This document shows, piece after piece, positions 8,095 to 17,786 of a DNA stretch of 35,319 nucleotides. The position numbers and the translations under genes are program-made. Numbering within the stretch: position 1 is the first letter of the stretch; each line of letters starts with the position of its first letter. Source of the DNA: Flavihumibacter sp. CACIAM 22H1 (GTDB lineage: Bacteria > Bacteroidota > Bacteroidia > Chitinophagales > Chitinophagaceae). The DNA lies in assembly GCF_001601815.1 (NCBI RefSeq), contig NZ_LUKG01000010.1:24557-59875 (forward strand). The letters run 5' to 3'. Under the pieces are notes generated by a model, which searched no databases, had not been told where the DNA came from, and saw only the letters and a program-made list of their open reading frames with translations.

Positions 8095-8595
8095 ATGAAG
8101 GAACCGATACAAAAGCAAGCATTTATACAGATGCTGGAAGCTCATAAAGGCCTATTGTATAAGATCGCGCGGTCTTATACCACCACGCCTGCCGACTGCC
8201 AGGATCTGGTACAGGAAATTACCCTGGCACTTTGGCGATCTTTTGAGAAGTATAACCAGCAGTATGAATACAGTACCTGGATCTACCGGATTGCATTAAA
8301 TGTATCGATCAGTCATCTAAGAAAGGAAACCCGGCGTATACAATCACATGCACTCACCGAAGACCACTTGTTCTTACCTATTGATACCGGTGGGGAGGAT
8401 GCTGCAGTAAACCTTCTGTATTCCTTGATTGCCGCCTTGAATCCGTTGGATAAAGCCATTATGTTACTTTATCTGGATGAAAAATCGTATCGCGAAATGG
8501 CTGAAATACTCGGCCTGTCTGAATCCAATATTGCCACCAAAATCAGCCGCATCAAAGAAAAATGGCGGCAGCAACTAAATGTAAAAAACACCTGA
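8095..8595 (+). CDS. RNA polymerase sigma factor, ECF (sigma-70 family)
   Basis: A 166-residue protein with the two-domain ECF layout. Region 2 covers about residues 10-80, with DCQDLVQEITLALWRS and STWIYRIALNVSISHLRK. Region 4 covers about 110-160, with LNPLDKAIMLLYLDEKSYREMAEILGLSESN, a helix-turn-helix for the -35 element. There is no C-terminal extension. It directs core RNA polymerase to a specific promoter set. The stop is followed after 2 bp by the start of a membrane protein gene, so the two are translated together; that partner is a candidate regulator of sigma activity. The gene is divergent from the GH95 operon, a plausible target. The family is certain; the regulon is inferred. 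Confidence 0.93.
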   Translation: MKEPIQKQAFIQMLEAHKGLLYKIARSYTTTPADCQDLVQEITLALWRSFEKYNQQYEYSTWIYRIALNVSISHLRKETRRIQSHALTEDHLFLPIDTGGEDAAVNLLYSLIAALNPLDKAIMLLYLDEKSYREMAEILGLSESNIATKISRIKEKWRQQLNVKNT

Positions 8596-8597
8596 AC

Positions 8598-9245
8598 ATG
8601 CAAGAAAAAGAAATTATAGAAATCTGGAAATCGTACCAGCAAAAACTGGATAGCTCCCTGCAAATGAATAAAAAATGCCTGCAGGAAATACAGCTCATGA
8701 AAGCATCTTCCTCCTTAAAACCCGTTCGGCTAACCAGGTGGATAGGGATTGTATTCGGCCTGGTATGGTTATTATTTATCGCTTTCCTGATGTATCATTC
8801 CTTAAGCTGGTCAAAACTTGTTTTTCTCCTTTCAGCCGGCATTCATTTCATCGTGTCATTGTATGCCATACTTGTTTATATACATCACCTGGTTTTATTA
8901 GATCAGTTTGATAATAGTAATTCAATTGTGGAAGCACAACAAAAACTGGTTCTGCTTTCCACATCTAATCTTCGGGTCCTAGGTATTTTGTTAGTTCAGT
9001 TACCGGTATTTTCTACCTGGTACATGAATCTTGAATGGATGCATTCATCTCCGGAAACTTTTTGGGGCATCCAGGTGCCGATTGTATTAATACAGGCCTG
9101 GATGGGTTGGTGGGCATTCAGAAACCTACATTATCGCAATCATGAAAAAAAATGGTTCCGCTGGTTTTTGAGCAAGGGCGAATTCGCCACCTTTAAAAGA
9201 GCCACGGCTCTTTTAAAAGAAGCTGAAATGCCACTGACTTCTTAA
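8598..9245 (+). CDS. Four-helix membrane protein, putative sigma-factor partner
   Basis: The start chosen is ATG 8598, two bases after the sigma stop; an upstream in-frame ATG at 8562 would overlap the sigma gene and adds residues unlike the rest. The product is 215 residues. An N-terminal hydrophilic helix (EIIEIWKSYQQKLD, then LQMNKKCLQEI) is followed by four hydrophobic segments at roughly residues 37-60, 67-95, 118-140 and 150-172, then a basic tail. I recognise no named domain. Similar proteins (an EIWK...KLD...LN..EI helix plus four membrane spans) are, from memory, common next to ECF sigma genes in Bacteroidota. The cytoplasmic helix could hold the sigma factor at the membrane, but there is no direct evidence and no classical anti-sigma fold such as FecR. 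Confidence 0.7.
   Translation: MQEKEIIEIWKSYQQKLDSSLQMNKKCLQEIQLMKASSSLKPVRLTRWIGIVFGLVWLLFIAFLMYHSLSWSKLVFLLSAGIHFIVSLYAILVYIHHLVLLDQFDNSNSIVEAQQKLVLLSTSNLRVLGILLVQLPVFSTWYMNLEWMHSSPETFWGIQVPIVLIQAWMGWWAFRNLHYRNHEKKWFRWFLSKGEFATFKRATALLKEAEMPLTS
9192..9217. repeat. Perfect 12-bp inverted repeat with 2-bp spacer inside coding sequence
   Basis: Arms TTTAAAAGAGCC (9192-9203) and GGCTCTTTTAAA (9206-9217) match exactly around an AC spacer. It lies in the last 60 bases of the membrane protein gene and encodes FKRATALLK. No T-run follows, so it is not a normal terminator. It could form a strong RNA hairpin near the 3' end of the sigma-operon message. Confidence 0.85.
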
Positions 9246-12872: not shown

Positions 12873-13196
12873 TTATTGATTCAGCTTGATTTCGCCTACA
12901 TCAACGGTAGCACCTTCGGCTACTTCAACACCGTCTTTAGCTGTGTTCTTATAAGGTGCAACTGCTTCAATTACAATCTGATAAGTACCTGCTTTCATGT
13001 TTTTAAGCTCAAAAGCACCATTTGCGATCGGAGCTTTTACTGTGTCAACAGAGGAAAGTGCCCATGCCTGGGTAGCTCCTTCTGCGGGACTTACAGTTCC
13101 TTTTACAGTTGCCGTATTTACATCTTTAAAAGAGAATAAACTAACTGTTGCAATTCCAAGTGCCAAGGCGGTAATTTGTAACTTTTTCATACTCAT
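12873..13196 (-). CDS. Small secreted protein with carboxypeptidase-regulatory / Cna-B-like fold
   Basis: The start chosen is ATG 13196 (or ATG 13190 two codons later); both give a basic start and a hydrophobic signal segment (LQITALALGIATVSLFSF). The upstream frame to 13289 is Ile/Phe-rich and unlike a protein start. The 107-residue product has about 80 mature residues with TVKGTVSPAEGA, then IANGAFELKNMKAGTYQIVIEA and VDVGEIKLNQ, the pattern of a small beta-sandwich that binds or spaces other proteins (CarboxypepD_reg / Cna-B type). There are no catalytic residues. It is monocistronic, with its own terminator and a probable promoter about 170 bp upstream. Probably periplasmic or exported; its function is unknown. 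Confidence 0.75.
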   Translation of the reverse strand: MSMKKLQITALALGIATVSLFSFKDVNTATVKGTVSPAEGATQAWALSSVDTVKAPIANGAFELKNMKAGTYQIVIEAVAPYKNTAKDGVEVAEGATVDVGEIKLNQ

Positions 13197-13362
13197 GATT
13201 TTTTTAATTGGATAAATGAATTGTTTGATGACAGGAATGTAAATCCAATCATTGTGCCAAAAATGTATTATTGAAATGTTAATGCACACAAAATCACTTA
13301 AAATCCAGTATTGGCAATCATTTCAGCGGGTGGTACAGTTATTGATAATATAAAAATATCGG

Positions 13363-13396: not shown

Positions 13397-13567
13397 CAGC
13401 TTGAAGGGAAATAAGAACGGTTATTCAGGTTATAAAAACAGTGGTTTTTTTACGCTTTCGTTAACCCATTAAAAAGCATTTTATCCACCCTTTTTTCTAC
13501 CATTAAAAATAGTTTTAGACGCTGTAAATGTTGAAAAAATAGGGATAAACTGTCTTTATTTTTATCA

Positions 13568-13598
13568 AGTAAATTCAATATAGTATATTAAATTTACT
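13568..13598. promoter_or_regulatory. 31-bp near-perfect palindrome, candidate operator
   Basis: Arms of 15 bases (13568-13582 and 13584-13598) around a single central G match at 14 of 15 positions. The outer part is AGTAAATT / AATTTACT and the inner part AATATA / TATATT. It ends 21 bp before the ATG at 13620. TAAATTTA (13589-13596), inside the right arm, is one base from the TAnnTTTG promoter element, so a bound dimer could block transcription. No T-run follows, so it is not a terminator. The palindrome is seen directly; the operator role is inferred. Confidence 0.65.
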
Positions 13599-13619
13599 CG
13601 ATAGATTATTCCCTAAACC

Positions 13620-14858
13620 ATGAGCCAGCAAAGATTTGTCCGGCATTTAAGCCGTTTTTTGACAAAAAATCAGGTTTTGATTCTTTCAGGACCCCAAATG
13701 ATTGGAAAAAGATTTTTGTCGGAACAGATCGCCAAACAGTTTCGGAGAAAAATTTTGGTGCTTGATTTAGCAAAAACGGTAAATCGTAAAAAACTGGTGA
13801 ACCCAGATTTTTTTCTTTCTGCTCATGCAAGTGATTTTATTGTGCTCGAAAATCTTGAATATTTTCCCGCATTATTGGTTGACATCATCCGATTCCAGGG
13901 AGTCCATAAAAAGTTGCCAAAAATTGTTTTAACCCTCAATTTTCAATTTGAAGCCGTTTTTAGGTTTTATGCTATTCCACGAAAAGTTATTGTCCAGGAG
14001 ATTTTTTCCATCTCCTTCCAGGAGGCCACGAGATTAAAATCGGTGACAATTTTTGATCATTGGTTAAAAGGAGCGTATCCCGGTTTTTTAACGGCGCCTT
14101 CTCACCGGGTATTAAACAACCGGATGGACAGAATTATTGAATCGGTTTGCACAGGCAACACGGCTCAAATTACCGGTCACCAGTTAAGTCGTGATAGATT
14201 GATGGAATTACTAGAAATCCTTGCACAGTTAAACGGTACCATCCTCAACGTTCAGGCAATTGGAAAATCGATGGCATTGAGTGGCCCAACCGTACTTCGT
14301 TATATTAATTACCTCGAAGCCGCCATGCTGATCCGTTTATTGCCCGCATATTCTCAGGCAGGAGCTTCCAAAAGAGTAGTGAAAGCACCCAAGATCTATT
14401 TCCGGGATTGCGGTTTATTACACCATCTTCGGTCTATCAAAACGGTTCAATCGCTCAGTAAGTCAATCGGTCAGGCAGATTCCTGGGAGGCTTATTGTAT
14501 AGATGAAATCACTAAACTGCTGCCGCCGAAATATAAACTTCGTTATTACCGCACACAACATGCTGCTGAAATTCAGTTGGTGCTCACAAAAAATAATAAA
14601 CACCATCCCGCCCTACAACAGGCCGTGGTAGCCATATCCATTCAATCAGGCCCCTCTCCGCAGCTACCCCGTGGGCTCAGAAATTGTTTTGCAGACCTTT
14701 CTACCCGCAAAAATTATATTTTGCCGGGGCCCGGGCAGCATACCCATTCAATTCCACCTGAGTTTCCTGCTGAATTTGCAACTAGTTTAAAATCAGTGAA
14801 TTGCTCGGTTATTTCCCTGGCAGAACTGCTGCTTAAACTCCCTTTTCTCCGGTTCTAA
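13620..14858 (+). CDS. DUF4143-family ATPase homologue with degraded catalytic motifs
   Basis: The 412-residue layout follows the AAA_14/DUF4143 family: an N-terminal P-loop domain (about 1-140), a winged helix (about 185-245, with SGPTVLRYINYLEAAMLIR), KAPKIYFRDCGLL (256-268), and a C-terminal nuclease-like domain. Key residues are altered. The P-loop reads GPQMIGKR, with Arg at 31 where Ser/Thr binds Mg. The Walker B DE pair is E77-N78 in IVLENLEY. In the C-terminal domain the usual EVD is EIQ (307-309) and the usual E-x-K is SIQ. The reading frame is intact, so selection seems to have kept the fold. It may act as a DNA- or protein-binding regulator. It stands alone, 57 bp before polA on the same strand, behind the large palindrome. 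Confidence 0.75.
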   Translation: MSQQRFVRHLSRFLTKNQVLILSGPQMIGKRFLSEQIAKQFRRKILVLDLAKTVNRKKLVNPDFFLSAHASDFIVLENLEYFPALLVDIIRFQGVHKKLPKIVLTLNFQFEAVFRFYAIPRKVIVQEIFSISFQEATRLKSVTIFDHWLKGAYPGFLTAPSHRVLNNRMDRIIESVCTGNTAQITGHQLSRDRLMELLEILAQLNGTILNVQAIGKSMALSGPTVLRYINYLEAAMLIRLLPAYSQAGASKRVVKAPKIYFRDCGLLHHLRSIKTVQSLSKSIGQADSWEAYCIDEITKLLPPKYKLRYYRTQHAAEIQLVLTKNNKHHPALQQAVVAISIQSGPSPQLPRGLRNCFADLSTRKNYILPGPGQHTHSIPPEFPAEFATSLKSVNCSVISLAELLLKLPFLRF

Positions 14859-14903: not shown

Positions 14904-14911
14904 TATCTTTG
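14904..14911 (+). promoter_or_regulatory. polA promoter -7 element (TATCTTTG)
   Basis: An exact TAnnTTTG element ends 4 bases before the polA ATG. With the usual spacing, transcription would start at or within a few bases of the start codon, giving a leaderless or nearly leaderless message. No clear -33 TTG is visible in the pyrimidine-rich sequence upstream. Confidence 0.6.
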
Positions 14912-17750: not shown

Positions 17751-17786
17751 GTTTAGGGGTGGGGTAGTATCCGACCCCTAAACTTT
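17751..17786 (+). terminator. Hairpin directly after polA, probable terminator
   Basis: A perfect 10-bp stem GTTTAGGGGT (17751-17760) / ACCCCTAAAC (17774-17783) with a 13-base loop is followed by only TTT. An alternative pairing GGGGT (17761-17765) / ACCCC exists. The right half resembles a repeat at 22774-22790, so it may instead be an extragenic repeat unit. Confidence 0.6.

Follow-up and report, generated by a model that had tools for sequence, protein, structure and literature searches.

A palindrome upstream of a degenerate Flavihumibacter DUF4143 gene is probably its operator, read by the gene's own protein under a near one-residue-to-one-base rule

The stretch of DNA analysed here, called the window, comprises 35,319 nucleotides of Flavihumibacter sp. 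CACIAM 22H1 (contig NZ_LUKG01000010.1, positions 24,557 to 59,875). It carries P0001, a gene of the DUF4143 family that matches the phage-defence candidate PDC-S01 and lies between a small CarboxypepD_reg-like gene on one side and polA on the other. A long palindrome stands just before its start codon. We argue that this palindrome is probably an operator recognized by the P0001 protein itself, and that residues of the protein covary with bases of the site throughout the family. The features of the locus are as follows, with operator positions counted outward from the centre in each half-site and residues in P0001 numbering.

13563..13603, no strand: predicted palindromic operator with 20-nucleotide arms, 18 of the 20 positions matching, centred on G13583
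13568..13598, no strand: core palindrome, AGTAAATTCAATATA-G-TATATTAAATTTACT, 14 of 15 pairs matching
13567, plus strand: operator position -16 of the distal half, an A where the family rule for His314 expects G
13599, plus strand: position -16 in the proximal half of the operator, C here and G on the complementary minus strand, which fits His314
13589..13609, plus strand: two weak matches to the -7 box TAnnTTTG, TAAATTTA at 13589-13596 and TAGATTAT at 13602-13609, placed by sequence and by the position of the box in the family
13620..14858, plus strand: P0001, DUF4143 / PDC-S01 gene with degenerate ATPase and nuclease motifs, 412 amino acids
14280..14291, plus strand: residues 221-224 (SGPT), the N-terminal end of the winged-helix recognition helix
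14547..14567, plus strand: residues 310-316 (YRTQHAA), the tip of a beta-hairpin, with Gln313 and His314 as candidate specificity residues for the outer operator

The original prediction described a 31-bp palindrome with a central G, 21 bp before the gene, and considered it larger than chance structure. The core palindrome is present as described, with 21 bases separating it from the ATG at 13620, and it extends outward into a 41-bp palindrome in which positions 13567/13599 and 13576/13590 are unpaired. It is the top palindrome of the entire window, both at an arm length of 15 and at an arm length of 20. Among 1000 dinucleotide shuffles of the 330-bp intergenic region, none reached 18/20 and one reached 14/15, bearing out the claim that the structure exceeds chance; the best of 40 shuffles of the whole window attained 16/20, compared to 18/20 for the real sequence. 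The palindrome occurs once in its own genome (4.87 Mb, 97.3% complete) at up to three mismatches, and a plasmid search for similar DNA returned none. It did not appear in a repeat search with a 9-base seed, because it lacks an exact run of that length.

P0001 is a member of the Pfam family DUF4143 (PF13635; 96.4 bits, cut-off 28.1) and falls below the cut-off for AAA_14 (PF13173; 20.3 bits, cut-off 27), to which an intact relative, L143, scores 95.5 bits. The PADLOC models for PDC-S01 match P0001 at an E-value of 7.1e-40; for three intact relatives the E-values run from 6e-89 to 1e-91. In the window copy, Walker A Thr31/Thr32, Walker B Asp77-Glu78 and Arg122 (to Lys) are all replaced. The motif E-x-D...E-x-K, which we take to be that of a PD-(D/E)XK nuclease, has as its presumed catalytic residues E317, D319, E340 and K342; the window copy reads E, Q, S and Q at these positions, and the 66 non-Flavihumibacter proteins of the 72 aligned carry E in 66, D in 64, E in 66 and K in 66. 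Gln313 and His314 are retained in all six Flavihumibacter proteins compared, in which most catalytic residues are replaced, and the recognition helix is largely retained as well. In the F. stibioxidans copy, Walker B and Asp319 are still present.

Some relative is found at an E-value of 1e-30 or better in 9 of the 15 genus genomes, the window's own included, and in seven Flavihumibacter genomes the gene occupies one locus. Syntenic orthologues in five genus-mates are 48-56% identical to P0001, and that of F. stibioxidans is more distant (33-34%). The palindrome recurs before the syntenic gene in the six other genomes, always centred 37-39 bp before the start, with 14, 15, 15, 15, 14 and 12 symmetric positions of 20 (18 in the window), and its proximal, gene-side arm is nearly invariant in the close orthologues. 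Conservation upstream of orthologues, a check proposed with the original prediction, is thus found, with one arm decayed in four of them. Copies unrelated to the gene are not: when the 15 genus genomes were searched at up to three mismatches, five had one site each, always at the gene, and in a further genome (G004) the gene is present and the site is too diverged for this pattern. The CarboxypepD_reg-like protein next door (12873-13199, minus strand, 108 amino acids) is 100% identical between the window and one genus-mate (G014), compared to 56% for the DUF4143 protein, and by this measure its gene is an unusually constant neighbour of the palindrome.

Upstream palindromes are a feature of the wider family. 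A scan of contigs with P0001 alone as the query returned no relatives, and an alignment-based scan gave the best 80 of 449. In a sample of 119 genomes of the order, 111 of 112 DUF4143 genes could be scored (one had too little upstream DNA), and the upstream palindrome beat all 60 shuffles in 63 of the 111, compared to 8 of 100 other genes at the same loci. Later loci, a few of them shared with the first sample, gave such palindromes upstream of 71 of 115 scored genes (of 117) and downstream of 34 of 113; the two samples together comprise 226 records, or 215 after removal of redundancy. The clade that includes the window gene has a common odd-centred register, and the half-site derived from 73 strong sites, written from the outermost base inward (-20 to -1), is WWCCNNGHAAATYNAAAATN, with positions -16, -15, -13 and -8 to -6 the most variable.

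We then compared variation in the operators, placed from DNA alone, with variation in the proteins, which were aligned separately. The covariation set held 116 genes (effective number 70), namely those passing the threshold plus eight Flavihumibacter genes kept regardless. Among all pairs of protein column and operator position, residue 314 and base -16 ranked first (z 21.7), followed at z 6.6-7.8 by residues 221-223 with bases -5 to -7 and by residue 313 with base -13. The relation at -16 is nearly deterministic: His goes with G, Asn and Gln with A, Ala and Val with T, and Asp with C. Counting the base in both halves, His was found in 30 genes (29 GG, 1 AG), Asn in 21 (AA), Gln in 7 (AA), Ala in 17 (TT), Asp in 15 (CC), Ser in 5 and Val in 4 (all TT), Thr in 11 (6 GG, 5 TT) and other residues in 6. 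The only His314 gene with a half other than G is the window's own. The winged helix that the original prediction had recognized in P0001 is indeed present, and covariation links its recognition helix to the inner bases of the operator. The residue with the strongest specificity signal, however, sits outside this fold, in a hairpin that belongs to the nuclease-like domain.

For a held-out test, the rules were fixed beforehand and then applied to 60 fresh loci, of which one (L291) was dropped as a duplicate. An operator was called for 37 of the remaining 59 genes and a prediction could be made for 35; the predicted base was right in both halves in 29 of the 35, and in 62 of 70 half-sites. Permuted predictions gave a mean of 13.0 and a maximum of 20 in 5000 trials, and copying the nearest training homologue gave 9 of 35. 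By residue, the score was 20/20 for Asn, 4/7 for Ala, 2/2 for Asp, 3/3 for His and 0/3 for Ser; grouped at 60% identity, 10 of 13 clusters were entirely right, 1 was mixed and 2 were wrong. Two of the Ser failures carry Lys313, resembling a Lys-Thr exception, and after the test we amended the rule such that Lys313 with Ala, Ser or Val predicts G.

Under the amended rule, pairs of genes at least 60% identical, which are not independent of one another, differed in base in 37 of 37 cases when their predicted classes differed and agreed in 150 of 158 cases when the predicted class was shared. A tree of 153 genes implies about 54 changes of the residue and about 45 of the base. Paralogues within hand-picked genomes tend to have distinct sites, with 22 of 23 pairs showing at least 4 differences among 14 half-site letters. 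Because of the residue-base covariation and the largely successful held-out prediction, we conclude that the DUF4143 protein probably reads its own palindrome, and the original prediction's autoregulatory operator gains support from both. More generally, these patterns suggest that members of a very common gene family recognize DNA by a rule that can be read.

An AlphaFold2 model of P0001 indicates how such reading could be arranged. The model has a mean predicted local distance difference test score of 93.5, and an intact relative is predicted to fold alike (93.6). In the model, strands 305-312 and 317-325 are joined by a loop of residues 313-316, and the winged helix has helix 222-234 as its recognition helix. 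Residues 1-272, the ATPase and winged helix, match 2qen (Z 15.2; 240 residues, 3.3 A) and 2fna (Z 14.5; 245 residues, 3.2 A), and the listed structural (VIA) matches cover mainly residues 1-303. In sequence comparisons with solved structures, among the best 60 of 110 matches, the ATPase part resembles 2fna (2e-7) and the helix-turn-helix weakly resembles RacA (0.0098); recA entries top the same best 60, with no stretch of theirs passing alone. The C-terminal domain appears to be PD-(D/E)XK-like, judging from its E-x-D...E-x-K residues and from the description of PDC-S01 in the accessible text of PMC12988326.

We propose that the protein would bind the palindrome most likely as a symmetric dimer. 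In each half-site, the winged-helix recognition helix (residues ~221-223) would read bases -5 to -7, and the beta-hairpin tip of the PD-(D/E)XK-like C-terminal domain (residues 313 and 314) would read bases from about -13 to -16, with rules close to one residue for one base. The promoter layout fits such a role. TAnnTTTG occurs between the palindrome and the start in 49 of the 104 genes that have a called site near the start (shuffled expectation 5.2), with its first base exactly at -12 in 38 of the 49, and in none of the 104 control stretches of equal length on the far side of the palindrome. The layout is different where the palindrome reaches the start itself. In many family genes the site thus lies over the -33 region and just upstream of the -7 box, and binding there should block the promoter and so repress the gene.

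Taking all of this together, we assign a probability of roughly 0.8 to the reading in which the palindrome serves the DUF4143 gene as an operator that the gene's own protein recognizes. Several points weigh against it. In the window itself, the distal half of the palindrome violates the -16 rule, with A instead of G, and the -7 box is imperfect. The near-match to a promoter -7 element noted in the original prediction does overlap the palindrome, TAAATTTA lying inside it and TAGATTAT across its end, but the match is weak and neither is a full TAnnTTTG. Among the orthologues, the distal arm has decayed in four genomes (G003, G004, G005 and G008; 14-15/20 symmetric). Taken singly, the sites at L003-L007 and L010 are unremarkable by a generic score (z -1.0 to 2.6), and placement with the family matrix leaves L006 (3.4) and L007 (1.9) weak; the case therefore rests on their shared position and on the family pattern. 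Below z ~5.5, covarying pairs turn up all over the protein. Most of them involve base -14, which distinguishes subclades, and such scatter would be as expected of relatedness. In the held-out test, 22 of 59 genes had no operator at the threshold used, 6 of 35 predictions were wrong (all three Ser and three of the seven Ala), and the 20 correct Asn genes fall in few clusters. Placement also varies: of 153 called sites, 69 have their centre between -45 and -33, 64 lie closer to the start and 20 lie farther from it, so the -33 argument does not fit all genes. Regions downstream of the same genes are enriched for palindromes too (28 of 109), which plain autoregulation does not explain. Finally, dimerization, repression and the geometry on DNA are all things we infer.

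The downstream palindromes lead to the foremost alternative, in which the palindrome is primarily the end of a mobile cassette, a cleavage or transposition site on which the protein acts, with transcription control secondary or absent. A second palindrome follows the stop codon in 37 of 173 genes, centred 12-34 bp beyond the stop in 34 of them, and its presence suggests a mobile cassette; one of the remaining ones is the operator of the next gene. The residue-314 rule is obeyed in both halves by 33 of the 37, and in 34 of the 37 the left half agrees with its upstream counterpart at no fewer than 11 of 14 positions. Ninety-two gene pairs shared at least 80% DNA identity and had 250 bp of upstream DNA. 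In 60 of them homology breaks off no more than 130 bp from the start, and in 32 it continues. For pairs with a called site, it ends within 10 bp of the outer edge of the palindrome in 26 of 29, at a calling threshold looser than that of the held-out test and with non-independent pairs from few groups (Bacteroidales sets, Daejeonella, a Cytophagales pair and Segetibacter). There is also one case of presence and absence at the level of the locus: at L032 in genome G127, about 1.5 kb with the gene and its palindromes stands where three relatives have 37-43 bp, with borders ~91 and 134 bp outside the palindromes. Intact relatives thus look, from sequence comparison, like self-contained cassettes bounded by palindromes.

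Other observations make this alternative unlikely for the window palindrome. Searches for an empty site with joined flanks yielded no base-exact junction in sets of 18 and 10 genomes, nor among the matches listed for 65 genomes, where the flanks themselves are repeated. The window gene has no palindrome after it, has lost its nuclease and ATPase motifs and sits at one locus in seven Flavihumibacter genomes, and nevertheless keeps the operator and the putative DNA-reading residues. The -7 box between palindrome and start, at its fixed position in most of the genes that have it, likewise speaks for transcription control.

An operator for a different transcription factor is very unlikely. Many dimeric regulators do bind a wide AT-rich palindrome beside a promoter, but here the bases covary with the DUF4143 protein's own residues, the held-out test largely succeeded, and the genome holds no further site at up to three mismatches. 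It is equally unlikely that the palindrome acts as RNA, as a hairpin of the 5' leader or as a terminator, although a long inverted repeat beside a start codon, and after the stop in some relatives, might be taken for one. Mismatches that would be G-U on the mRNA strand are about as common as those on the other strand (46 versus 43, and 12 versus 12 in a set examined earlier), an indication that the DNA itself is under selection. Rfam gave no match in the window at gathering scores, and in the 49 of 104 genes with a -7 box downstream of the palindrome, the palindrome would be untranscribed.

The ratio of nonsynonymous to synonymous substitution rates is 0.12-0.25 in the 14 of 15 pairs that allowed its calculation and 0.13-0.23 in the six unsaturated Flavihumibacter pairs, and the putative DNA-reading residues are, by these values, under purifying selection. 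With catalytic motifs lost, residues 313 and 314 kept and this ratio low, the degenerate element seems to have been kept for DNA binding. The window copy is thus probably a fixed, catalytically degenerate descendant that keeps its operator and putative DNA reading, and a probable autoregulator.

A search of the 119 order genomes with a generic exact pattern found 14 places in 13 genomes, each of them on both strands; the pattern demands CC ends and misses the window's own site and GGACAAAT-type sites. Nine of the 14 are well symmetric by eye, seven of them at DUF4143 genes, and the other five look like chance. The two well-formed places elsewhere (L303:759-795 and L304:1180-1216) are operator-type palindromes, of the kind CCATGAAAATC, from two genomes that belong to a single genus. 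The surrounding DNA examined contains no DUF4143 gene, and they are possibly solo sites left behind by a lost element; at L304 an open reading frame (ORF) resembling a DNA methyltransferase starts about 140 bp from the palindrome. A second DUF4143 clade (L097, L082, L085, L088, L098, L083 and L053) has long even-centred or composite upstream palindromes, such as one of 54 bp at L097. The operator and residue-314 rule hold also in four loci with labels from beyond Bacteroidota, namely L164, L165 and L195 (KSB1) and L192 (Calditrichota), metagenome bins whose labels may be wrong. Internal stop codons occur in the family copies L055, L207 and L229, as expected of decaying elements.

Elsewhere in the window, a full TAnnTTTG box, TATCTTTG, lies at 14904-14911, 4 bp before the polA start, and is visible also in L003 and L004; polA therefore probably has its own promoter. 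Two further palindromes match at 13/15, one centred at 17767 between the polA stop and the next ORF and terminator-like, the other centred at 9205 near the end of ORF 8562-9245.

Among known systems, MmeI-type (Type IIL) restriction enzymes have as their target a restriction site, read by a target-recognition domain. In the accessible text of PMC4833311 their specificity is predicted by amino-acid/base covariation, and by analogy this seems the nearest known idea to ours. In the DUF4143 family, the protein would instead target the palindrome of its own gene, reading it chiefly through a hairpin in its nuclease-like domain. The archaeal AAA+ ATPases PABY2304 (2qen) and SSO1545 (2fna) share the ATPase and winged-helix fold, but the match does not reach the C-terminal domain with the specificity hairpin, and we know of no operator for either. 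Classical autorepressors recognize a palindromic operator by their own promoter, and the reading proposed here works alike; to our knowledge, however, the DUF4143 protein belongs to no known repressor family, and the task of reading DNA seems to be shared by a winged helix and a nuclease-like domain, both attached to an ATPase. In REP/RAYT or IS200/IS605-type elements, a gene is bounded by palindromes that its own protein reads. The DUF4143 protein is a different one, and the mobility of its cassette is a candidate property.

PDC-S01, defined in PADLOC-DB as DUF4143 with AAA_14 and a solitary phage-defence candidate, shares with P0001 the model match; the window copy differs in being without most catalytic residues. 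In the text available from PMC12988326, PDC-S01 is an ATPase fused to a PD-(D/E)XK member and ranks fourth in frequency among the defences of all prokaryotes, and in the accessible parts of PMC12988326 and PMC13356809 it is a widespread candidate without a tested role. The string 'palindrom' occurs nowhere in the available text of the former. We found no operator, palindrome or recognition rule for DUF4143 or PDC-S01 in the open-access literature searched, a scope outside which most subscription journals lie. As far as these sources extend, PDC-S01 was already known as a widespread defence candidate, and the operator and the recognition rule appear to be new.

A broader picture, which we offer tentatively and hold with less confidence than the operator itself, is that DUF4143/PDC-S01 genes may be self-contained, palindrome-bounded mobile genes whose AAA+/winged-helix/PD-(D/E)XK protein recognizes, regulates and moves its own ends by a near-digital code of one residue for one base. 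Each copy would have a private address that keeps paralogues apart, and the window copy would have been tamed into a pure regulator. The residue-to-base rule would give PDC-S01 a concrete DNA target, its own ends, that is partly predictable from sequence alone, and the embedding of PDC-S01 in other loci may reflect mobility. The hairpin would be a natural DNA-reading element that could be studied like other recognition codes.
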